Source of the DNA: Bacteroidales bacterium
GTDB taxonomy: Bacteria > Bacteroidota > Bacteroidia > Bacteroidales > UBA932
Direction of reading: 5' to 3'
DNA length: 38,679 nt
Assembly: GCA_017415715.1 (NCBI GenBank)
Contig: JAFQFD010000053.1
Location: 1 to 38,679 of the forward strand
Below, one piece after another: positions 26,716 through 36,020 of this stretch. Both the position numbers and the translations under genes were made by a program. A model generated the notes under the pieces. The model was not told where the DNA came from and searched no databases. It saw only the letters and a list, made by a program, of their open reading frames with translations. Position 1 is the first letter of the stretch; the number at the start of each line of letters is the position of its first letter.

Positions 26716-28152
26716 ATGGCAGATAACGGCAATATAAAGGTTTGTATGGGGCTTTCCGGCGGTGTCGATTCCAGTGTTGCCGCCTGGATTCTCAAGCAGC
26801 AGGGATATGACGTCTTCGCCCTATTCATGCAGAACTGGCATGATGCGTCGACAACTCTTCATGGAGACTGCGAGTGGGAAGAGGACCGTTTTGTTGCCGA
26901 GATGGTTGCCCGCAAGGTGGGCATCCCGTTCTACTTTGTGGACCTCAGCAAGGAATACAGACAGAGGGTCGTAGACTACATGTTTGACGAATACGAGAAA
27001 GGACGCACGCCTAATCCTGACGTCCTCTGCAACAGGGAAATCAAGTTCGACGCATTCCTGAAATGTGCCAAGAAGCTTGGAGCAGAATATGTCGCGACCG
27101 GTCATTATTGCCGCAAGGAAACAGTCGAAGGGCCTGATGGTCAGAAGATTCACAGGATTCTTGCAGGCGCAGACCCCAACAAGGACCAGAGCTATTTCCT
27201 CTGCCAGCTCACTCAGGAGCAGCTTTCGCAGGCACTCTTCCCTATCGGCGACATTGAAAAGCCAGAGGTGCGCAGGATAGCCCATGAGGCGGACCTGCCT
27301 TCGGCGGACAAGAAGGATTCGCAGGGAATATGCTTTGTCGGAAAAGTCGACCTTCCTACATTTCTGCAGCAGAAGCTCAAGCCATGCGAAGGAGATGTGG
27401 TAGAGGTGTTTGATGCATATTATGAGACAGACGGACACTATGCGGACATAAGAAGGATCCTTCAGTCCATATTACGTGATGACGAAGATTCGCTGAAGAT
27501 GATTACCGACTATGTATCAGAAGACAAGGCTGTGCCTGCGGCATCAGCCGGATGTCCGTTCGATCCTGAGAAGATCGCAACACTGTCGGACGAAGAGCTT
27601 ATGACGCTGTCACAGCCTGTGAAATATGACATAAAGTTCGAGACCGAGACATACAGGAGCGGCAGGAAGCACATCAAGAAGACCAGGTATAAGGACAATC
27701 CATACGGAAAGATTGTCGGAAAGCACGACGGAGCTCAGTTCTACACGATAGGACAGCGAAAGGGGCTGAACATCGGCGGTCACAAGGATTCGATCTTTGT
27801 CATAGAGACAGATATTCCGAACAATATCATATACGTCGGCGAGGGACATACCCATAAGGGACTTTCGCGAAGCTGCCTGCGCGTGGCTCCGGAAGAGATC
27901 CACTGGATCCGCCCGGACCTCAGGATGGTTACCGGCGAGATCAGACGCTACCGCGTCCGCATCCGATATCGCCAGCCGCTTCAGGACGCGACTCTGATCA
28001 TGCGTGAGAATGGTCTCTATATATTATTTGACACGCCGCAGCGCGGAATCACCCCAGGTCAGTTCGCAGTATGGTATGCTCCTGTGGAAGACGCTTTGTC
28101 TACAAGAGCAAAGGACACATCTGTAGAAATGCTTGGTTCTGGTGTCATTTAA
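26716..28152 (+). CDS. mnmA: tRNA-specific 2-thiouridylase MnmA with large insertion
   Basis: A 478-aa enzyme that thiolates U34 of tRNA. The ATP PP-loop is GLSGGVDSSV, the first catalytic Cys is Cys105 in VLCNREIKF, and the persulfide Cys is Cys206 in SQGICFVG. The C-terminal barrel starts GKIVGKHDGAQFYTIGQRKG (331-350). Usual MnmA proteins are about 350-380 aa. Here roughly 95 extra residues (about 231-330) sit between the catalytic and central domains, where the canonical protein has only a short loop. The insertion is charged and has no recognised motif. The reading frame is intact. Confidence 0.95.
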   Translation: MADNGNIKVCMGLSGGVDSSVAAWILKQQGYDVFALFMQNWHDASTTLHGDCEWEEDRFVAEMVARKVGIPFYFVDLSKEYRQRVVDYMFDEYEKGRTPNPDVLCNREIKFDAFLKCAKKLGAEYVATGHYCRKETVEGPDGQKIHRILAGADPNKDQSYFLCQLTQEQLSQALFPIGDIEKPEVRRIAHEADLPSADKKDSQGICFVGKVDLPTFLQQKLKPCEGDVVEVFDAYYETDGHYADIRRILQSILRDDEDSLKMITDYVSEDKAVPAASAGCPFDPEKIATLSDEELMTLSQPVKYDIKFETETYRSGRKHIKKTRYKDNPYGKIVGKHDGAQFYTIGQRKGLNIGGHKDSIFVIETDIPNNIIYVGEGHTHKGLSRSCLRVAPEEIHWIRPDLRMVTGEIRRYRVRIRYRQPLQDATLIMRENGLYILFDTPQRGITPGQFAVWYAPVEDALSTRAKDTSVEMLGSGVI

Positions 28153-28154
28153 GA

Positions 28155-29534
28155 TTATTCTGCCACTTCTGGATTGTCAAGAAATCTCGCTGCGTTGATG
28201 CCTGCAAGATAGCCGGTCGAGAAGGCCGTCTGAAGATTATATCCACCTGTATCTGCATCAAGGTCAAGCACTTCGCCAGCAAAGTACAATCCCGGCACCA
28301 GTTTGGATTCCAGCGTCTTTGGGGTGATCTCGTCAAGTGATACACCTCCAGCCGTGATCACGCATCTTTCATAGCCCACATATCCGGCAATCTCAAACTT
28401 CCAGTTCTTGAGGAACTTCGCCAACGTCTTGTGATCGGCATTAGGATTACATCTGACAAATGCAGGAATAAGAGACATCGGAAGCACTTTAGTCAGAAGA
28501 ATCTTGAAGCGGTCCTTATATATCTTCTGCGCGTTCCTCTTATCCTTTGACACTTCGTTCCACAATGTAGAAATACGGACCGTGAGATCCTCGATCTCTA
28601 CCGCAGGTTTCATGTCCATCACGACATGCACCTTCGAGCCGTTCACTATGGCATTGACACACTTTCTGCTGACCTTGAAGCCTATCGGTCCCTCTATTCC
28701 ACCATCTGTGAAATCGAGATCACCGAACTCATACTGAGCTTCATTTCCGTCAATGAACACAGTCAGTGCTACATTCTTCAGTTGATTTCCGCAGAGCATC
28801 TGCCCGAGCTCGCTGAGCGGCTCGCTCCGATGTATATGCCCCTTGCCTGTCATCTCGGGTTTTCCCCCTGTCATCTCGAGCGTAGTCGAGAGATCCTTAT
28901 ACCCCCTAGGCACAACAGCCGTCAACGACGGAAACAACGGCCTCACAGAATGTCCCATCTGCTCAGCCCACGCATATCCATCACCGGTAGATCCTGTCTT
29001 AGGATATGAAAGCCCGCCAGTGCATATTATCAGTTTGCTGCAACTATATGAGGCTCCATCCCCGCATTTGATGCGGAATGAACCATTGTCCTGACGAACA
29101 ATCTCTCTCACTTCCTTGTTGCAGAGCACCTCGGCTCCTGCCTGTTCGGCAGTCCTTACCAGCGCATCAACCACGTCAGATGCAAGATGTGAAGCCGGAA
29201 ACGCCCTGTCTCCCCTCTCCACAACACTCTCCATTCCCGCTTCCTGCAGGAAATCGATCATGCGCTCTGATGTGAGATTGTAGAATGACGGTTTGAGGAA
29301 ACCAGGCTTCGGATGCACATGCTCCGAGAACTCGTTCCACGCCTTGAGGTTGGTGAAATTGCATCTTCCCTTGCCGGTAATCATGATCTTCCTGCCCGGA
29401 CGAGGCATCTTCTCAAGCACTGTAACCTTGCCTTCCACGCCCTTCCTGGCGAATGTCTCAGCTGCGCCTGCAGCCGCCATAAGCCCTGCCGCGCCGCCTC
29501 CTATGATGATAATATCTGCTGAATTGTTTGCCAT
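28155..29534 (-). CDS. HI0933/BaiN-like flavoprotein (NAD(P)/FAD-dependent oxidoreductase)
   Basis: A 459-aa flavoprotein with the FAD dinucleotide fold IIIIGGGAAGLMAA, followed by the family signature GRKIMITGKGRCNFTN and the C-terminal GLYFAGEVLDLDADTGGYNLQ. The family's substrates are mostly unknown. Unusually, about 40 residues between SLTAVVPRG and LCGNQLKNV interrupt the normal sequence. That stretch contains DLSTTLEMTGGKPEMTG, encoded by a palindromic repeat element (28867-28893). The frame is kept. A -7 box, minus-strand TATATTTG at 29542-29549, lies just upstream. Confidence 0.93.
   Translation of the reverse strand: MANNSADIIIIGGGAAGLMAAAGAAETFARKGVEGKVTVLEKMPRPGRKIMITGKGRCNFTNLKAWNEFSEHVHPKPGFLKPSFYNLTSERMIDFLQEAGMESVVERGDRAFPASHLASDVVDALVRTAEQAGAEVLCNKEVREIVRQDNGSFRIKCGDGASYSCSKLIICTGGLSYPKTGSTGDGYAWAEQMGHSVRPLFPSLTAVVPRGYKDLSTTLEMTGGKPEMTGKGHIHRSEPLSELGQMLCGNQLKNVALTVFIDGNEAQYEFGDLDFTDGGIEGPIGFKVSRKCVNAIVNGSKVHVVMDMKPAVEIEDLTVRISTLWNEVSKDKRNAQKIYKDRFKILLTKVLPMSLIPAFVRCNPNADHKTLAKFLKNWKFEIAGYVGYERCVITAGGVSLDEITPKTLESKLVPGLYFAGEVLDLDADTGGYNLQTAFSTGYLAGINAARFLDNPEVAE
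28846..28893. repeat. Palindromic repeat unit inside the flavoprotein gene
   Basis: The core TCTCGA-GCGTAG-TCGAGA (28874-28891 or nearby) matches a dispersed palindromic repeat that I know from Bacteroidota genomes and that yields peptides such as LSTTLEMT or CHLERSREI in different frames. Its flank, cctgtcatctcg, occurs twice, at 28846-28857 and 28867-28878, 21 nt apart. The repeat therefore adds whole codons and encodes EMTG twice. The neighbouring frame reads VISSVVERS, another typical translation of this element. Confidence 0.8.
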
Positions 29535-29562
29535 AATTCTGCAAATATATCTAAAAAATCTC

Positions 29563-29570
29563 TATATTTG
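29563..29570 (+). promoter_or_regulatory. -7 box for the tRNA-Thr gene
   Basis: TATATTTG lies 26 nt before the tRNA 5' end. No TTTG is found at the usual -33 spacing. A mirror -7 box for the flavoprotein gene (29542-29549, minus strand) lies 13 nt to the left. Confidence 0.55.
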
Positions 29571-29596
29571 CAGTCCCTTGAAAAAGGAGATTCGTT

Positions 29597-29669
29597 GCCA
29601 GTTTAGCTTAGTCGGTAGAGCATCGCATTCGTAACGCGAAGGTCGTGGGTTCGAATCCCATAGCTGGCT
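29597..29669 (+). tRNA. tRNA-Thr (anticodon CGT)
   Basis: A 73-nt cloverleaf. The acceptor stem GCCAGTT pairs with AGCTGGC (one G-T pair). The D-arm is GCTTAGTCGGTAGAGC. The anticodon loop TTCGTAA has anticodon CGT, reading ACG. The T-arm is GTGGGTTCGAATCCCAT. The discriminator base is T and CCA is not encoded. The anticodon stem has one A-C mismatch next to the loop. A terminator follows directly. Everything downstream looks accessory, so this tRNA may be an integration site, though no duplicated 3' end was found in the window. Confidence 0.95.
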
Positions 29670-29670
29670 C

Positions 29671-29720
29671 AAGAGATTGACCAAAAGTCAATATGACTGA
29701 ATGGTCAGTCTCTTTTCTTT
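29671..29720 (+). terminator. Intrinsic terminator after tRNA-Thr
   Basis: AAGAGATTGACC (29671-29682) pairs with GGTCAGTCTCTT (29703-29714) as a 12-bp stem with one G-T pair, followed by a T-rich tail (TTTCTTT). Confidence 0.85.
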
Positions 29721-29776
29721 ATATATGGTTACCCTGGGAGGATAATCAGGTCATTGAAAAACAAGGGGTAAAACTA

Positions 29777-29784
29777 TATCTTTG
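29777..29784 (+). promoter_or_regulatory. -7 box upstream of the chimeric ORF
   Basis: TATCTTTG, with ATTG about 20 nt upstream, gives a reasonable promoter. Just after it is a 7-codon ORF reading MAIISDH (from 29792), which resembles the first residues of a calcineurin-like phosphoesterase and may be the broken 5' end of that gene. Confidence 0.45.
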
Positions 29785-29857
29785 CATAACTATGGCTATC
29801 ATTTCGGACCACTGATCGAGAGAATTGAAAAGGCAATCATAAAAATACTGGCATGAT

Positions 29858-30229
29858 ATGGCTCAGATAGAATACAAGGTTCTCCAGTATCCTGAAGGAA
29901 TCACCCAGAAGACAGAAAAAGAATGGAACCAATCAGGCAAGGACGGATGGGACCTCGTTTCTTTCGGTCCGACCGCTCTTGATGTTACTGGTTCAGTAGA
30001 AGATTCCATGCCAGGCTTGGGGAATTACCCCAAGCTGATTGGTAAATATGGCTATGGCAGTGCTAAACTTATGGCAAGGGTACTGGATGTCTGTCCTAGA
30101 GCCCATCTGTTTGGACATATTCATAACGCCACCGGAATCCATGCAGGAAAGTACACGGCGTTTTCAAACGGTTCCGTTGTCAATGAGCACTACGAGGTTT
30201 GCAAATACGGAAATCGACTAATTTTTTAA
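29858..30229 (+). pseudogene. Chimeric ORF: DUF4177-like start joined to a metallophosphoesterase remnant
   Basis: A 123-codon ORF with two unrelated halves. Residues 1-50 (MAQIEYKVLQYPEG...SGKDGWDLVSF) look like a DUF4177 small domain. Residues from about 65 on (YGSAKLMARVLDVCP, then HLFGHIHNATG and FSNGSVVNEHYE) match the C-terminal end of calcineurin-like phosphoesterases, including the GHIH metal motif. The N-terminal DxH and GD motifs are absent, so the phosphoesterase cannot be active. It is probably a rearrangement product, although the joined frame is open. Confidence 0.65.
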
Positions 30230-30241
30230 TATAATACTTAA

Positions 30242-30747
30242 TTAATATCCTCCCAGGCTATTCAGCAGTTGCATAAGGGCTTCCTCACCCGTGATTGCAA
30301 TTGGCTTATGAGATAGTTTCATCTTGCAGATATCAACCTTACCATCGACAGGAGTTATTTGAAGGAGATACGGATCTCCGATTTCAGGCCATACCAGTTC
30401 CATCTTATCGCCGCCATCCACAGGCTCCATATATATGACAAAGGTACTGAAGTGTTCTGAAGGATACTCCTTTACATATGCTCTGGAAAATGCACTTCTT
30501 TACCATCAATAGAAGCCACCTTCTTTTCGAAATCAAACTGTGCTATTGTAACCTCAATTACAGGTACTGTCATCTCCGAGCTGAGAATGGCATGATCCTC
30601 ATAGGAAACATATCGTGGAGTCGTCAGGACTTCCGCGGCTGAGACATACATTTTCCCGCTATAGTTAAGCGGGTTCAACTTAGGATTCTGTGCTGCAGCT
30701 GCCAAGATGCAGGCAAAAGAACAAAAGAGTGCCAAATACTTTTTCAT
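30242..30747 (-). pseudogene. Secreted protein gene broken by a frameshift
   Basis: An N-terminal part (30472-30747) begins with a signal peptide (MKKYLALFCSFACILAAAAQ) and ends early at KEVHFPEHM. A second frame picks up at about 30475-30500 (AYVKEYPSEHFSTFVIYMEP) and continues to SLGGY at 30242. A -1 shift would restore one protein of about 168 residues with no other stop. The family is unknown. The start at 30747 is chosen for the signal peptide and lies 27 nt after the -7 box at 30774-30781, which carries the shared WYL-locus element. Confidence 0.65.
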
Positions 30748-30773
30748 ATAGAATTTCTTTACGGTTAATGCAG

Positions 30774-30809
30774 CAAAGTTATCTGGCACTTCAGCATTTC
30801 TTCGGCAGA
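30774..30809 (-). promoter_or_regulatory. Site A: -7 box plus shared 21-bp element
   Basis: On the minus strand the element TCTGCCGA-AGAAA-TGCTGAAG (30789-30809) sits 7 nt upstream of a -7 box TAACTTTG (30774-30781). The element covers the position where the -33 TTTG would normally be. It precedes the frameshifted secreted-protein gene. Compare sites B and C. Confidence 0.7.
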
Positions 30810-30814
30810 AGGTA

Positions 30815-32089
30815 TCAGTCTATTATAATTTCCATATCATCCACATATCTAGTGGAAGATATCACCTTAGCTCTTAGTTCTTCAGATATGTCCAAGGTGC
30901 AGAAATCACTGTCTACCTCCTTGTGAATAGGGATTATTGCTGACTTAGGATTGGTCATTTTGCAGACTCTTGCCAGAGTTTGCCTTGTAGCATGTCCTGT
31001 AGTATGAATATAGACACAGTTCTTGCCGAACATCCTTACGAAATCACGAAGCTTGGGCTGTTCTTTAAGGTATCCCTTATACTGAGAATAAACCAGCACA
31101 GTCTGGTCAGGGTCCAGATGAGGCATAAGGTAACTGACCCATTTACGGAACGTAGGGTTATCCCTTACAATCATTGTGAATCCCCTTTCAATCATCTTCT
31201 TGTGCAGGTTCACCTTTTTTAGGGACATCTCTGCAGCGTTATCGATCACGTACAAGTCCGAATACTTTCCGCTATATTGCGTCAAGGTCTTGAACTGAGC
31301 ATTCTGATACACATCACAGACAAACGGCCTGCCTCTGAATCCAGCATTTGCCTTATGCAGTCCGGCAAGCCTGTCAAAATTCGTTGATGAGCACAACACG
31401 AATACATTCTTGTATCGGGCCATGATTTCAGTCATCTGAGTTTGTATCTCGCTTTCGGTCATAGTATGCTCATCGTCTCTCGAAAGCATAGTGCCCTCAG
31501 TAATCAGAACATCTACTGATGAAACATACGACATAATAGTCTTCTCCAGACCTTTGCCAAGGAATCCATGCTCCCTCAGATCTCCAGTATGCAGAACGCG
31601 CTTTCCATCACACTCTATCAAGAGCATATACGAATCCGCTGCAGAGTGACTCACGAAATACGGAGTCACCTTAATATCACCTACACAGAATGACTTTTTC
31701 GGTGCATAAGTTCGGAAAAGCGTAAGGCTCATGATTTTACGCTCGATTTTCTCAATAAGACATTTATGCTCTGCACGTATCGCCTTATTAAGACTTTCAT
31801 CGAGGACATTGACGATAACCTCACGGGACATCTCTCCGATATATTGAGGGATTTCCCTGGGTACCTGGTCAAAGAATCCAAGATGATCTCCGTGATTGTG
31901 AGTATATATAATACCGGAAATCCCATCAAGGAGAGCAGACAGATTAGAGGCTTCATCAAACATATCTGCTGTTGCTTCCCCAGGAAGGTTATGCCCAAGG
32001 TCAATGAGGACACGAGTACCGTTGTCTGAACGTATCTCCGTTATGCATCCGCCGATCTGATTGGCACCTCTATGGATTCGTATCTTCAT
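30815..32089 (-). CDS. MBL-fold hydrolase, beta-CASP/RNase J-like
   Basis: A 424-aa metallo-beta-lactamase-fold protein. The metal motif is THNHGDH (His64, His66, Asp68, His69), with His148 (VSHSAADSY) and Asp170 (LHTGDLREHG) further on. LITEGTM matches the RNase J/CPSF LIxExT strand. Later, HTTGHA (362-367) and PIHKE (387-391) match beta-CASP motifs B and C. It is therefore probably a metal-dependent nuclease acting on RNA, or possibly DNA, but shorter than RNase J (about 550 aa) and without its C-terminal domain. Its start overlaps the upstream 167-aa gene by 20 nt, indicating translational coupling. Confidence 0.88.
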   Translation of the reverse strand: MKIRIHRGANQIGGCITEIRSDNGTRVLIDLGHNLPGEATADMFDEASNLSALLDGISGIIYTHNHGDHLGFFDQVPREIPQYIGEMSREVIVNVLDESLNKAIRAEHKCLIEKIERKIMSLTLFRTYAPKKSFCVGDIKVTPYFVSHSAADSYMLLIECDGKRVLHTGDLREHGFLGKGLEKTIMSYVSSVDVLITEGTMLSRDDEHTMTESEIQTQMTEIMARYKNVFVLCSSTNFDRLAGLHKANAGFRGRPFVCDVYQNAQFKTLTQYSGKYSDLYVIDNAAEMSLKKVNLHKKMIERGFTMIVRDNPTFRKWVSYLMPHLDPDQTVLVYSQYKGYLKEQPKLRDFVRMFGKNCVYIHTTGHATRQTLARVCKMTNPKSAIIPIHKEVDSDFCTLDISEELRAKVISSTRYVDDMEIIID

Positions 32090-32573
32090 CGCTTACCTGA
32101 TTTCGCGCTATCATCTTCACTGTGTGGATCATATCATCCCAGGTCTTGAGTCTCTTGCGTTCTTCTGGCTCGAGCGAGTTCTTCAGTTGATCATCACTCA
32201 TGTCCTGATTGACGCGTAGAGTCTCATATATCTTGCTCATGAGAGCATATTTCTCCTGGATGTATTGATTACATGGTGCAAATCCAATGTACCCAGCCTG
32301 AAAGGCAATCCTGTACCACTCATTGGTGGCATGAAGGAAACTATAGCCCTGCTCTTGTGCCGACTTGATGAACTCCCGCTTGAAGTAGTCGAACAGTGCG
32401 TAACTCCTTGATGAAGCATGTTTGATGGCCAGCTCGGCATCCGCCAACGGGAGCTTGCCTATTACCTGGCAAAGAAGGAGCGCCTGACCTCTGTACATGA
32501 TTCCCGGTCCGGAATCAAATCCCATCTTGGCTTCCAGGAATGGGATAATCCTACCATTTTTGCAATGTTTCAT
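32070..32573 (-). CDS. Unknown 167-aa partner of the MBL protein
   Basis: I do not recognise this protein. It starts at the ATG at 32573 (MKHCKNGRIIPFLEAKMG), placed after a -7 box at 32591-32598; the longer frame upstream covers the operator and is rejected. It is mostly helical, with aromatic-rich segments (SYALFDYFKREF, FLHATNEWYRIAFQAGYIGF) and a charged C-terminal third ending SDEDTNP. No signal peptide. It overlaps the MBL gene by 20 nt, so the two products are likely to act together. Confidence 0.8.
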   Translation of the reverse strand: MKHCKNGRIIPFLEAKMGFDSGPGIMYRGQALLLCQVIGKLPLADAELAIKHASSRSYALFDYFKREFIKSAQEQGYSFLHATNEWYRIAFQAGYIGFAPCNQYIQEKYALMSKIYETLRVNQDMSDDQLKNSLEPEERKRLKTWDDMIHTVKMIARNQVSDEDTNP

Positions 32574-32590
32574 AATTCTATATTTTGTTG

Positions 32591-32626
32591 CAAAGGTACT
32601 GGCATCTTCTGCAAGAAGTCGGCAGA
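32591..32626 (-). promoter_or_regulatory. Site B: -7 box plus shared 21-bp element
   Basis: The minus strand has TCTGCCGA-CTTCT-TGCAGAAG (32606-32626) 7 nt upstream of the -7 box TACCTTTG (32591-32598). Including the preceding C and T, the outer halves CTTCTGC and GCAGAAG form a perfect inverted repeat with a 9-nt spacer, the best dyad among the three sites. It drives the 167-aa/MBL gene pair from within the gap after the PD-(D/E)XK-like gene. Confidence 0.75.
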
Positions 32627-32632
32627 AGCCGA

Positions 32633-33253
32633 TTATTCTATCACATCGGTTGCTATAATCTCTTCTTGTTCGCCTTTGAATGATGCTACGATATAAGATA
32701 CTGGATGTGAGCAATCCATAGTATGGGCTTTATAACCTTTTTTAGCCTTTAGCTTTTCGACAATACTTTCATCTGTCTTGCTGTCATGGCTCTTCACAAT
32801 TTCAATAAAGTATCTCAACTCACCCTCAATCTCATGTTTTAACTTAAAGGCGTCTTTAGCATGGGCATGTTCAGAGGGATTCAAAGCCTTGAACTCAATC
32901 AGAGCTATTCTCTTGAAGTCTTTGCCGTGTATACAGAGATCTATACAGCCACTCTGTTGGCCCTCACCGGTCAATTGATATGAGTTACTAGTCGGAGTCT
33001 CTACAGAGTAATAGACTTCCCACTCACGATGTGCATCGCAATACTTGTTTAGTTCTTCAACGAACATGAAACGCAGTTCCTGCTCACTCACTCTCAATTC
33101 ACCTTCTACGCGCTCTCCTTCCTTAGTAACCCAGTAACGAGGGAAGATAAGACGTGTATTTTCAAGTCCGCCACCGTCTCTATGATATAGTGAGTTCAAC
33201 TTTGAGAGAGTCTTCTCAATTACTGCCATAATGTGTTTCTTGTGATTTTCCAT
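32633..33253 (-). CDS. PD-(D/E)XK nuclease-like protein
   Basis: A 206-aa protein. A helical N-terminus is followed by an acidic helix (SEQELRFMFVEEL, residues 56-68), strand EVYYSVETPT, and then the core motif: Asp105 in GCIDLCI and Glu120-x-Lys122 in ALIEFKALNP, spaced as in PD-(D/E)XK enzymes. It continues HAKDAFKLKHE and a helical end. This fits a restriction-endonuclease-like fold, though no specificity can be told. It starts 5 nt after the WYL gene stop and is probably in its operon. No methyltransferase gene is present beside it. Confidence 0.72.
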   Translation of the reverse strand: MENHKKHIMAVIEKTLSKLNSLYHRDGGGLENTRLIFPRYWVTKEGERVEGELRVSEQELRFMFVEELNKYCDAHREWEVYYSVETPTSNSYQLTGEGQQSGCIDLCIHGKDFKRIALIEFKALNPSEHAHAKDAFKLKHEIEGELRYFIEIVKSHDSKTDESIVEKLKAKKGYKAHTMDCSHPVSYIVASFKGEQEEIIATDVIE

Positions 33254-33258
33254 AGTTT

Positions 33259-34173
33259 CTACCTTTTTACGTCTTTTCTATATTTCATATAAACATTCAG
33301 CACCATCCTGCCGATTTCCTTTCTAAGAGACAATGGCTCTAATACTTCCACCGAATCCAAGTAGGAAATTATCTCCTGCTTGAAGTCAAAGTTCGGTCTG
33401 AGGAGATATTCGAACACAGAGTATTCATCATTGGTCTCGATCTCCGCCTGTGAACAATGCAGCGCCACTGTTCTTACCAGGTCGCGATGCTTTGCATTCA
33501 CCTTAAGCAGGACTCTCTGCTTATCATCTTCCGAGCGCCTTACTCCATAGAAGTCCTCGAAGTAACCTTCTGCATCAAAGTCTTCCGGCATCTCGAATAC
33601 CTCATCCAGAACATTCACGTACATGGTTCGGTCTAGCATATAGAGTCTAATACCCTTGGAGTACTCAGAATATGCTATCAAATACCATCTGCGCTTGAAC
33701 AGTCTGATGCTATAAGGATGGATGACCATGTCCTTATATTCAGTCATTGAATGGCCCTTGTAAGATATACACAACTTCTTATTATCCCTCATGGAACCGA
33801 TTATAGAAGTCAGGAATCTGTGGCTTGATGGCACATCCTCGAGGAGTATCCTCTCATGGAGTCCCGCGCTCTCATTCAGCAGATTCCTCAAAGACAACGA
33901 GTTCAGCATCCAGTCCCTTATGGAATTCCCGTTAAGGTCATCTTCATTATCGATAAAGTATTCATTAGTAGTCCTGTCACACTTTATCTCTATGTCGAAT
34001 ATCTGCTCTATATTAGCCTTATAATTAGCGAAGGTTCTATCCGCAAGTGGCTTCCCCTCATCATTTACCGAGCTCCTTTCCCACTTTGCCTTCAATTCTT
34101 TTAGGGTAATCCTTCCATACCTCTGAATCGTGTCCAGAATCCAGATGTATCTTTTGAATGAATCTTTAGCCAT
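33259..34173 (-). CDS. WYL-domain transcriptional regulator
   Basis: A 304-aa protein with an N-terminal winged-helix-type region (FKRYIWILDTIQRYGRITLKEL, then a second helix with DRTFANYKANIEQIF) and a WYL domain at about 140-230 (MVIHPYSIRLFKRRWYLIAYS, RLYMLDRT; here split into motifs VIHPYSIRLF and RRWYLIAYS). A C-terminal WCX-like extension follows. WYL proteins sense ligands, probably nucleic acids, and often control phage-defence operons (BrxR, CapW). The start at 34173 is chosen over ATGs at 34179 and 34182. Site C lies directly upstream, so it is probably self-regulated. Confidence 0.9.
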   Translation of the reverse strand: MAKDSFKRYIWILDTIQRYGRITLKELKAKWERSSVNDEGKPLADRTFANYKANIEQIFDIEIKCDRTTNEYFIDNEDDLNGNSIRDWMLNSLSLRNLLNESAGLHERILLEDVPSSHRFLTSIIGSMRDNKKLCISYKGHSMTEYKDMVIHPYSIRLFKRRWYLIAYSEYSKGIRLYMLDRTMYVNVLDEVFEMPEDFDAEGYFEDFYGVRRSEDDKQRVLLKVNAKHRDLVRTVALHCSQAEIETNDEYSVFEYLLRPNFDFKQEIISYLDSVEVLEPLSLRKEIGRMVLNVYMKYRKDVKR

Positions 34174-34190
34174 ACACATCATGTTTTGAG

Positions 34191-34227
34191 CAAAGATAAG
34201 AAAGAGCTTCGGCAAAAACTTGGCAGA
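34191..34227 (-). promoter_or_regulatory. Site C: -7 box plus shared 21-bp element (WYL gene)
   Basis: The minus strand reads TCTGCCAA-GTTTT-TGCCGAAG (34207-34227), 8 nt upstream of the -7 box TATCTTTG (34191-34198). The -7 box is only about 18 nt before the chosen WYL start. The element matches sites A and B at 15 of the fixed positions, and its location at the regulator's own promoter makes autoregulation likely. Confidence 0.72.
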
Positions 34228-34347
34228 GCATCTAAATATTGTGGAATTTTAAGCAAAATGATGTATTTTTGATACGCGTAATTATCGTTTATCTATCTCC
34301 AGCACTTTATAGGGTATCTGAAGACAAATTTATTACATCTTTGGGAC

Positions 34348-34692
34348 ATGATTAAACAAGCAACATTACATCTCTCTGCTAAACGCAGAGGATGTCACTT
34401 AGTCACTCATGAGATTCTCGAGCAGCTGCCGAAACCGCTACCGCAGGTGGGGATGCTCAATCTATTCCTACAGCATACCTCATGTGCTCTGACCATCAAC
34501 GAGAATTTTGATCCTGACGTGCGTACGGATATGGATTCTATCCTGAATCACATGGTCAAGGAGGGAGAACCTTATTACAGACACACGATGGAAGGCCCTG
34601 ATGACATGCCGGATCATGCGAAGTGTTCCCTCTTCGGAGTCAGCCTGACAATCCCGATAACAGGCGGAAAGCTTAACATGGGGACCTGGCAG
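34348..34692 (+). pseudogene. YjbQ family protein, 3' truncated
   Basis: The first 115 codons are a good YjbQ/UPF0047 protein: KRRGCHLVTHEI, LFLQHTSCALTINENFDP, EGPDDMPDHAK, LTIPITGGKLNMGTWQ. Family members continue with about 20 more residues (GIYLCEFR and onward). Here, after GTWQ, the reading frame becomes unrelated (KRKPNWKISLTAEHSP) and runs to a stop at 34833. The missing end suggests it is inactive or impaired. Confidence 0.8.
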
Positions 34693-34838
34693 AAGAGAAA
34701 GCCGAACTGGAAGATAAGCTTAACGGCGGAACACTCCCCTACGAGGAACTTCAGAAGACATCGGAGCGCATCGGTCAGATCATGGAACTCACCGACGAAA
34801 AGGAGTTCAGACTCCTTGAACTTTATGAACTGATGTAA
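34689..34838 (+). pseudogene. C-terminal remnant of an ABC-F ATPase
   Basis: In a different frame from yjbQ, 49 codons read AEEKAELEDKLNGGTLPYEE, then LQKTSERIGQIMELTDEKEF and RLLELYELM, ending with TAA. This coiled-coil, Lys/Glu-rich ending is characteristic of the C-terminus of Uup-type ABC-F proteins. Only this tail is present, joined directly to the truncated yjbQ, so a deletion fused the two genes. Confidence 0.75.
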
Positions 34839-34859
34839 CCACAAAAACACACTTACGCT

Positions 34860-36020
34860 ATGAGAAAGTTTTACACCTTGGCCGGTATTCTCTCCATTTC
34901 GGAGGAAGAAAAGGAATTGATCAGGCAGCAGGCTCTGGAAGGTGATCCTGTCGCCTGTTACAAGTTGGCGGAAATCTATCTGCATCTCCATGAGTGCGAG
35001 GATTATGTATCATCTGCGCACGAGCTGCTGCAGAAGGCAAGCGAAGGCGGCGTGGCAGATGCTGACGCCACTATAGCCATAATGATGTTCCGGGGAGAAA
35101 TCGAGCCATTCGATCCTGTAGCTGCGGCAAAACGCCTTGAAAAGGCCATCAATAACGGAAGTGATCGCGGAATAGCGTTCCAGCTCAGGAACCTTCTTTA
35201 TGGCAGGTATGGATACGAGCCGAATATCGACCTTGTCAGGCAGACGCTCGATCAGCTTCTCTCCCAAGGCGAAGACCCATATTGGTGCGCCCTGATGGGA
35301 GACCTCCTCATGGCCGAGGGAAAGATAGTCGAATCACGGCAGTGGTACGAAAAGGCCGTAGCGGGCGGAGAGAATAGCGCGTATGGCGACCTTGCACTGG
35401 CAAGAGGACTAAACGACGACTATAGCTTCAGAGACTATGAGGCATATAACGACACATTGATGGAAGGCAATGATGCCATGGACCCGATGTGCATGTACTA
35501 CTTCCTTCTTGACAAGATCGAAAGCTACTACGACATCGATCCGGAAGACACGCAGGCTCGTGATGAATACAGGCAGATGATTATCCATGCATTGGAACTG
35601 AACATCGAGTGGTGCCATCCAATGTCTATGGAACTGCTTGGAGACATTTACAGAGAGGGAAAGATCGATGTTCCTGCGGATCCTGTCAAAGCATGGTCAT
35701 ACTATGTTCAGGGATCTGAATTCATGCACGCATCGTGCTTCGGAAAGATGTACGATATGCTGCAGACAGATGAGATCCAACTTGGTCAGATGAGCAATGA
35801 AGAGGCAATGGATCTCTGCATGATCAATGGTGCCAGACTGCATTACGCAAGACTTCTTGTTGCAACTGTCGAAGCCTACAAGCATGGCCGACTGACGCAG
35901 TTCGCTAGAGAGATCGAGATGTTCCACATCCCTGCATACGACGCCATCCCGGACGACGAACCTCTTGACGACGAGGACGAAGGTCCAGATGACGACGGCC
36001 GTTTCGACGCATGGGTATAG
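34860..36020 (+). CDS. Sel1/TPR-like repeat protein
   Basis: A 386-aa protein beginning MRKFYTLAGILSIS, a start shared with its tandem neighbour. It is built from Sel1/TPR-like helical repeats (EGDPVACYKLAEIY, GGVADADATIAIMMFRGE, GKIVESRQWYEKAVAGG, SMELLGDIYREGKIDVPADPVKAWSYY). The end is very acidic (DDEPLDDEDEGPDDDG). No signal peptide. Such repeats usually bind other proteins. It is the intact copy of the two paralogs and heads a three-gene plus-strand cluster. Confidence 0.85.
   Translation: MRKFYTLAGILSISEEEKELIRQQALEGDPVACYKLAEIYLHLHECEDYVSSAHELLQKASEGGVADADATIAIMMFRGEIEPFDPVAAAKRLEKAINNGSDRGIAFQLRNLLYGRYGYEPNIDLVRQTLDQLLSQGEDPYWCALMGDLLMAEGKIVESRQWYEKAVAGGENSAYGDLALARGLNDDYSFRDYEAYNDTLMEGNDAMDPMCMYYFLLDKIESYYDIDPEDTQARDEYRQMIIHALELNIEWCHPMSMELLGDIYREGKIDVPADPVKAWSYYVQGSEFMHASCFGKMYDMLQTDEIQLGQMSNEEAMDLCMINGARLHYARLLVATVEAYKHGRLTQFAREIEMFHIPAYDAIPDDEPLDDEDEGPDDDGRFDAWV

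Follow-up and report, generated by a model that had tools for sequence, protein, structure and literature searches.

What reads a 21-base-pair (bp) element that recurs at three promoters of a single locus, and what would it do there? The locus lies in a 38,679-nucleotide (nt) stretch of a Bacteroidales bacterium (contig JAFQFD010000053.1; hereafter the window, meaning the whole stretch analyzed) and holds the gene of a WYL-domain regulator, a cargo gene, an operon for the 167-amino-acid (aa) protein p167 and a metallo-beta-lactamase fold protein (MBL), and the gene of a predicted secreted protein. Judging from the sequence, the element appears to be a real and informative operator, which would be a new form of a known WYL control. 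Taken as a whole, we consider it moderately probable that the WYL protein encoded at 33259-34173 uses the three sites as its operators and activates the local genes in the manner of DriD.

The element and the wider operator

An earlier note on this DNA had described three minus-strand sites of the form TCTGCCRA-N5-TGCNGAAG, lying 7, 7 and 8 nt before a TAnnTTTG -7 box. All three were found where it had placed them, with 0 mismatches each and with the gaps as claimed. Sites, boxes and regulator are listed here, L064 and L065 being the loci of the two nearest relatives.

34207..34227, minus strand: operator C, before the WYL gene; CTGCC-N7-TGCC-GAAG, identical in L064, with one change in L065 (GAAG to GAAA)
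34191..34198, minus strand: -7 box TATCTTTG of the operator C promoter, 8 nt past the element and 17 nt before the WYL ATG
33259..34173, minus strand: WYL regulator, 304 aa, with WYL and WCX domains (Pfam WYL 2.6e-11, WCX 5.7e-7), an N-terminal part like a helix-turn-helix (HTH) and the helix RTFANYK
32606..32626, minus strand: operator B, the best dyad (7/7), before the p167-MBL operon; the L065 ortholog is TTGCC-N7-GGCAG
32591..32598, minus strand: -7 box TACCTTTG of the operator B promoter, 17 nt before the p167 ATG
30789..30809, minus strand: operator A, before the secreted-protein gene
30774..30781, minus strand: -7 box TAACTTTG of the operator A promoter

The inverted arms CTTCTGC/GCAGAAG, also claimed in the note, are perfect at B and nearly so at A (6/7), but only 4/7 positions pair at C; operator A reads equally well as a direct repeat, TGCCGAAG-N3-TGCTGAAG (7/8). 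Dinucleotide shuffling of the window, repeated 300 times, never produced the exact 21-mer. When up to 3 mismatches were allowed, the window had 9 matches versus 2.34 expected, the largest count in 100 shuffles being 8. The whole draft genome (2.58 Mb in 56 contigs, 86% complete, the window being contig C52) holds four exact copies, namely the three window sites and C5:23603, for which no TAnnTTTG was seen in the roughly 100 nt inspected downstream. No copy in the draft genome has 1 mismatch and 36 have 2, giving 40 matches versus 11 for the reversed pattern.

The note had also proposed searching the genome and its relatives for the right half with its box. In the window's own genome TGCNGAAG-N5-9-TAnnTTTG occurred 3 times, all at this locus (reversed control, 1), but 80 of 150 relatives also matched, mostly at scattered places; therefore right half plus box is an insufficient regulon signature, and this short composite was dropped as a regulon finder. 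A looser form, TGCC-N8-GC-N12-14-TAnnTTTG, was found at 9 places in the window's genome (control, 1), and the six outside the three sites seem to belong to another site class.

CTGCC-N7-GGCA(G) recurs 11 nt before TAnnTTTG upstream of several remoter WYL genes (40-45% identical), so that the element, real as described, is better seen as a diverged variant of a broader operator, CTGCC-N7-GGCA(G)-N11-TAnnTTTG. Window sites A and B fit this frame to the base (CTGCC-N7-TGCN-N11-TAnnTTTG, 35 nt), and C has N12. A bridge to the canonical form is found in L065, whose site B is the clean dyad TTGCC-GAGTTCT-GGCAG, while its site A shows 0 changes and its site C shows 1. The spacing was also constrained: when the gap was left open (N8-16), 20 of the 28 sites found in 150 relatives lay at N11. 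For 21 loci (the window or chosen by WYL similarity, with near-duplicates kept), we recorded the first box following an N7 dyad within 80 nt; 13 of these 18 boxes lay at exactly 11 nt, whereas control dyads with spacers of 3-6 and 8-11 in the same loci (236 dyads) gave 7 boxes, one of them at 11. A further count of 79 sites at N11 includes loci fetched for N11 and is not used as evidence. Of 400 same-genus genomes, 47 hold the exact pattern CTGCC-N7-GGCA-N11-TAnnTTTG, with 81 sites in total, and the reversed control gave 1.

We placed all 81 exact sites relative to WYL genes of the clade described below. Fifty of them lie within 3 kb of such a gene, with a chance expectation, by our own estimate of one such gene per 2.3 Mb genome, of about 0.2. 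The linked WYL genes are 54-100% identical to one of eight clade queries, two of which are fragments; L247 was placed separately as WYL-linked and falls within the clade in the tree. In the forward direction, we collected 39 WYL loci by similarity, counting that of the window. Seventeen of them score at least 430 bits, a cut-off chosen after seeing the scores; 13 of these have the site in the 350 nt upstream, and one more shows a perfect dyad with a TTTCTTTG box at N11. Among the 22 lower-scoring loci, two near-identical ones have a weak N10 match. No site appeared in the upstream scan of WYL homologs at or below 394 bits except the weak one of L038; the nine paralogous WYL loci among the 22 (29-34% identical) carry no operator. 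Even so, in L286 (G130:C18) and L285 (G149:C4), from families of the order other than this one, TGCC-N7-GGCA-N11-TAnnTTTG stands before WYL-matching genes.

A tree of 60 WYL proteins places the operator-bearing ones in one clade of 37 (support 94/85). Its canonical branch (97/89, 31 rows) has 27 canonical sites and 4 rows with none, many canonical rows having been fetched because of their site, and its variant branch (100/98, 6 rows) has 5 variant sites and 1 row with none; outside the clade there are 22 rows with none and 1 weak (labels for L043 and L034 were set by hand). Clade proteins with the helix RTF[HF]NH have GGCA right halves wherever a site was found. Those with RTF[AS]N[HY] (the window, L064, L065, L096 and L066, the last with a right half only) have TGCCGAAG, or TGCNGAAG at the window's other promoters. 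L095, with the helix RTLSNH, has no site at its own promoter and one at the following gene. The form of the operator follows the WYL tree and the recognition helix, a candidate specificity rule.

The window protein itself has the parts of a WYL-domain transcription factor, an HTH-like N-terminal part followed by WYL and WCX, and comparison among loci assigns an operator to its own and neighbouring promoters. The N-terminal part is conserved in an alignment of 16 homologs and, as is usual in the family, would be an HTH. In PADLOC the protein matched WYL models and, over the WYL part, a model named Cas3c (1.3e-16); nothing else came out below E 0.0002.

A mosaic locus

The genes that would be controlled together with the regulator are the following.

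32633..33253, minus strand: cargo gene, 206 aa, PD-(D/E)XK-like by motif only, no Pfam match
32070..32573, minus strand: p167, 167 aa, no family match; model all-helical at low confidence (predicted local distance difference test, pLDDT, 58)
30815..32089, minus strand: MBL, 424 aa, RNase J-like by sequence, motif THNHGDH
30245..30747, minus strand: predicted secreted-protein gene, in two frames here (30747-30481 and 30496-30245) and in one open frame in L064 and L065

The two frames of the last gene are either a real frameshift or an assembly error. A contig search with the MBL gave two loci. The nearest relatives of the locus, L064 (G066) and L065 (G026), come from metagenome-assembled genomes of Bacteroidales bacteria, one from roe deer rectum, and share the gene order WYL (86 and 69% identical), p167, MBL (99%) and secreted gene; the three corresponding promoters also carry the element. 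What varies is the cargo between the WYL gene and operator B, of 206 aa in the window, 267 and 219 aa in L064, and 272 aa in L065; the L064 and L065 cargo proteins have no Pfam match. In DNA, window and L064 are 98% identical from 34302 to 33542; beyond this point the last third of the WYL gene is diverged and the cargo unmatched (swap region 32629-33542), so that the WYL proteins agree at 199 of 200 positions and then at 57 of 105 in the last third. L065 differs along the entire WYL gene (72% DNA identity). A conserved block of 2591 bp (96-97%) restarts in both relatives at 32629, the outer edge of operator B, and therefore operator B marks a module boundary.

Five of five homologs of the window cargo keep D105...E120-x-K122, a PD-(D/E)XK-like motif. 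The cargo model is poor (pLDDT 52), and Foldseek with this model against the PDB gave no match at E <= 0.001. The MBL has a sporadic distribution (11 of 250 genus genomes); for the secreted gene, 120 genomes gave 4 matches, one of them weak. When 11 window genes were used as queries against 20 loci fetched for their WYL gene, WYL alone matched all 20, and p167, MBL and the secreted gene had no match in the 18 of these loci other than L064 and L065.

Three WYL loci (L095-L097, from G198, G240 and G173, the WYL gene of G173 being cut by the contig end) combine a metallophosphoesterase, the window cargo family, an MBL and RtcB. RtcB was identified by Pfam in all three, and the metallophosphoesterase by Pfam in G198 and by likeness in the other two; PrfH was confirmed in G198 (L095), and HAD_SAK_2 lies next to another MBL. 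These loci resemble RtcB-PrfH and Swiss-army-knife RNA repair operons, which differ from the window in that none of its genes tested proved to be RtcB. The locus likely has a role in nucleic-acid conflict or RNA repair. Parts of one report (PMC7790460) describe the known rtc operon as regulated by RtcR; RNA repair in L095-L097 is possibly under a WYL regulator instead. In L095 (907-3777), the gene immediately before the WYL regulator encodes a protein of 956 aa that matches Schlafen AlbA_2 and, marginally, WYL.

Some features at the margin of the locus were also recorded. The only Rfam match over 28000-36000 is a tRNA, whose gene (29597-29669) adjoins the variable island and is a possible integration landmark. 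At 29858-30229, a DUF4177-like start is fused to a metallophosphoesterase end by a deletion of about 336 bp at 30039/30040 relative to L064.

Activation, repression or another reader

Comparison supports the operator-WYL linkage, the co-variation and the fixed geometry; what follows on binding, sign of control, ligand and purpose is what we infer. That the sites are bound by this WYL protein is very probable on the sequence comparison and, given binding, the protein is likely an activator. A WYL homodimer would place one winged helix on each half of the dyad, CTGCC and GGCAG (the latter diverged to TGCNGAAG here), with 7 bp between the halves. In these promoters, which lack the usual -33 TTG, the dyad would be centred where sigma-ABfr would read the -33 element, and its distance to the -7 box is fixed at 11-12 nt. 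A nucleic-acid or nucleotide ligand arising from phage attack or nucleic-acid damage would bind the WYL domain, and the ligand-bound dimer would seat on the site, straddle sigma region 4 and hold the housekeeping RNA polymerase on a weak promoter. This would turn on the regulator's own gene together with the nuclease-like cargo, the p167-MBL operon and the secreted protein. Across the clade, the sequences suggest that the WYL proteins sit at one fixed promoter position, where they probably turn on nuclease-like and repair genes.

The evidence for activation lies in the promoters. Parts of the literature (PMC7366714) give TTTG as the -33 element of Bacteroides promoters. Among 133 distinct TAnnTTTG promoters of the ordinary kind on the same contigs, 37 have TTG at its preferred place, 19-20 nt upstream, while only 1 of 31 operator promoters has it at this spacer (p = 0.0019; 6 promoters with a middling operator score were excluded, and near-copies among the 31 retained). 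All three window promoters have the -7 TAnnTTTG and none has the TTG at 19-20. The dyad centre lies about 2 nt from the ordinary TTG place at a fixed spacing to the -7 box, in agreement with the earlier claim that the element covers the -33 region. The same note had listed an activator as an alternative to WYL control; the fixed position does point to an activator aiding the housekeeping holoenzyme, which may be the WYL protein itself.

The WYL profile matched PafBC (2.2e-15), DriD (8tp8, 6.3e-10, over WYL-WCX) and CapW (0.0069) among solved structures. DriD, as parts of its report describe it (PMC12340889), recognises ATACGAC-N7-GTCGTAT, a site that overlaps the -35 and keeps a constant distance to the -10; at poor -35 elements, the two DriD domains lie on either side of sigma region 4. 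Like our system it has the HTH-WYL-WCX order, an N7 pseudo-palindrome over -35/-33 at a constant distance to -10/-7 and a weak -35, with nuclease genes among its targets, as the cargo here is nuclease-like by motif. The systems differ in the half-site (CTGCC/GGCAG here), in the TAnnTTTG promoter, and in the site before the regulator's own gene with control of a local cassette. Switching transcription on when single-stranded DNA is bound is a further mark of DriD-like activators. PafBC of mycobacteria, according to parts of PMC11804915, works by sigma adaptation through a -26 motif and inserts between DNA and sigma domain 4. It is likewise a WYL factor serving the housekeeping sigma, and the best sequence match among solved structures, but it is a heterodimer with a -26 motif where we find a single gene and a dyad. 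SiwR, a mycobacterial WYL activator described in parts of PMC10693628, uses a 19-bp imperfect palindrome between -10 and -35 to control an adjacent operon. Here too adjacent genes and a palindrome in the promoter are involved; SiwR has one reported target operon, whereas we find three promoters and a genus-wide operator family. Therefore an activator is likelier than a repressor, because the dyad replaces the -33 element at a fixed spacing as reported for DriD, and a DriD-like one is favoured because this geometry matches, the CapW and BrxR sites differ, and the WYL profile is nearest PafBC and DriD.

Several observations weigh against this DriD-like activation by the WYL protein. The window's right half is noncanonical (not GGCAG), and operator C is a poor dyad with a gap of 12. 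At their own promoter, 4 of the 17 top-scoring WYL loci lack the site as scanned; the variant form comes from few independent lineages; and L037, L039, L047 and L058, whose WYL proteins fall outside the clade, have the helix RTFHNH but no site, so that the helix alone does not predict the operator. The -33 contrast arises in part by construction, since CTGCC leaves no room for TTG at spacer 20 and near-copies are counted among the 31 promoters, and 96 of the 133 ordinary promoters also lack TTG at 19-20. In part of its report (PMC12340889) DriD is said not to regulate its own gene, and operator C precedes the WYL gene. Finally, 31 of the 81 exact sites have no clade WYL gene within 3 kb. Eight of them lie inside long open frames, of which three (L208, L216 and L222) are nearly identical and probably represent a single coding gene. 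The other 23 lie outside such frames; among them are sites before a lone RNase_T exonuclease (L207) and before a family of 219-227 aa (L212, L214, L219). Among 21 genomes with unlinked sites that were searched, 7 (G223, G201, G055, G346, G419, G394, G252) have a clade-level WYL (at least 390 bits), and the other 14, including G023, which is 97% complete, have weaker WYL matches only (6) or none at E 1e-40 (8). The regulon proposed earlier was WYL-controlled and local: the linkage strongly supports the first part, but because of the unlinked sites, and of genomes with a clade WYL elsewhere, the regulon is local and also dispersed in some relatives.

The best surviving alternative is that the same protein, at the same sites, is a repressor that blocks the -33 region and is released by a ligand or phage infection, as for CapW and BrxR; we regard this as possible, and doubtful. 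These WYL regulators of defence loci are repressors according to parts of their reports (PMC9122588, PMC9122601) and, like the window protein, stand beside defence-like genes with inverted repeats; in addition, a site before the regulator's own gene suggests autoregulation, which is typical of repressors, a cargo that is nuclease-like by motif may need silencing, and a -33-less promoter under an operator would suit repression too. However, the same partial accounts place the CapW sites over the -10 and the BrxR repeats, two boxes in one island (PMC9122601), downstream of the predicted -10, whereas here the operator is upstream of the -7 box at N11-12. A repressor needs neither a constant 11-nt spacing across dozens of promoters nor a missing -33 TTG, and the WYL sequence is nearer PafBC and DriD than CapW.

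That the element is read by some other regulator or by an alternative sigma factor, for which the WYL gene would be only one target, is unlikely. The unlinked sites and the 14 genomes without a clade-level WYL match would fit such a reader, and the dispersed dyad TGTGCC-N7-GGCACA, found in the same promoter frame and taken up below, implies that some other factor uses this geometry. A separate sigma factor, an alternative offered in the note, is unnecessary because the -7 box is ordinary. The dyad symmetry, an operator form that follows the WYL tree and the WYL gene being the sole one of 11 window genes to match all 20 loci (themselves fetched for WYL) also speak against this reader, as do 7 of 11 genomes with class-1 sites that have no class-2 site at up to 1 mismatch (G014, G023, G042, G047, G049, G055, G073, G082, G086, G089 and G090; G028 and matches at other gaps were excluded as chance-like). 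The last alternative, promoters copied by recombination with the cassettes and sharing no control, would suit a mosaic locus with a breakpoint at operator B and the TGCCAG that A and B share 3' of the element, but the flanks are otherwise little alike by inspection, the architecture stands before unrelated genes in many species and shuffles gave 0, all of which makes it very improbable.

A second dyad class at recA and umuD

We relaxed the first base of the operator pattern and found a second class of sites sharing the N11 promoter frame. TGTGCC-N7-GGCACA-N9-TAnnTTTG, at up to 1 mismatch, occurs in 38 of 150 relatives, all of this genus (reversed control, 1), and in 0 of 59 same-order genomes (G091-G149). 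The dyad stands before recA in G000 (G000:C38:14535-14570; L279/L317), G022 and G064, and before umuD in G011, the loci of these last three being among L334, L341 and L340. Family models confirmed RecA of G000 and UmuD of G011, where a UmuC-type gene is adjacent, and the other two RecA were assigned by likeness. By a simple filter on open reading frames, 22 of the 30 second-class loci checked have no gene start within 300 nt. An AddB-like reading of the genes behind the sites of L276 and L277 had no Pfam or NCBIfam match and was withdrawn, and the Bacteroidetes LexA-like operators GGA-N5-TCC and CTAA-N5-TTAG, as given in parts of PMC8565304, did not fit the three window sites by eye.

We also looked at paralogous WYL loci. 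Eight of these (L162-L169, 29-33% identical) all hold recG, adjacent in seven and past a peptidase gene in L169, together with a gene of the prolyl-oligopeptidase family (8/8); a ninth, L170, has no recG. The recG-linked WYL is therefore a candidate for regulating the response to DNA damage in the genus and, together with the sites at recA and umuD, hints that a WYL protein runs such a response. Only one of the eight recG loci has a class-2-like site before recG (L162, 15/18 letters), and therefore the connection to the second class remains a lead. The fullest proposal, tentative and as a whole rather doubtful, is that Bacteroidales have a class of -33-less promoters run by WYL activators, in which the CTGCC-N7-GGCAG branch would drive swappable nuclease and RNA-repair cassettes and the TGTGCC-N7-GGCACA branch an SOS-like recA/umuD regulon through the recG-adjacent WYL, replacing LexA-type control.

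In a literature search limited to titles and the starts of abstracts, and hence no proof of absence, we found no description of such an operator in this phylum. In conclusion, these results give a base-level operator, a spacing rule and a candidate rule of helix and half-site specificity for a WYL clade in a large Bacteroidales genus, and a common class of uncharacterised regulators becomes testable. Moreover, the occurrence of the same promoter frame at recA and umuD bears on the control of DNA repair in Bacteroidota without a canonical LexA.

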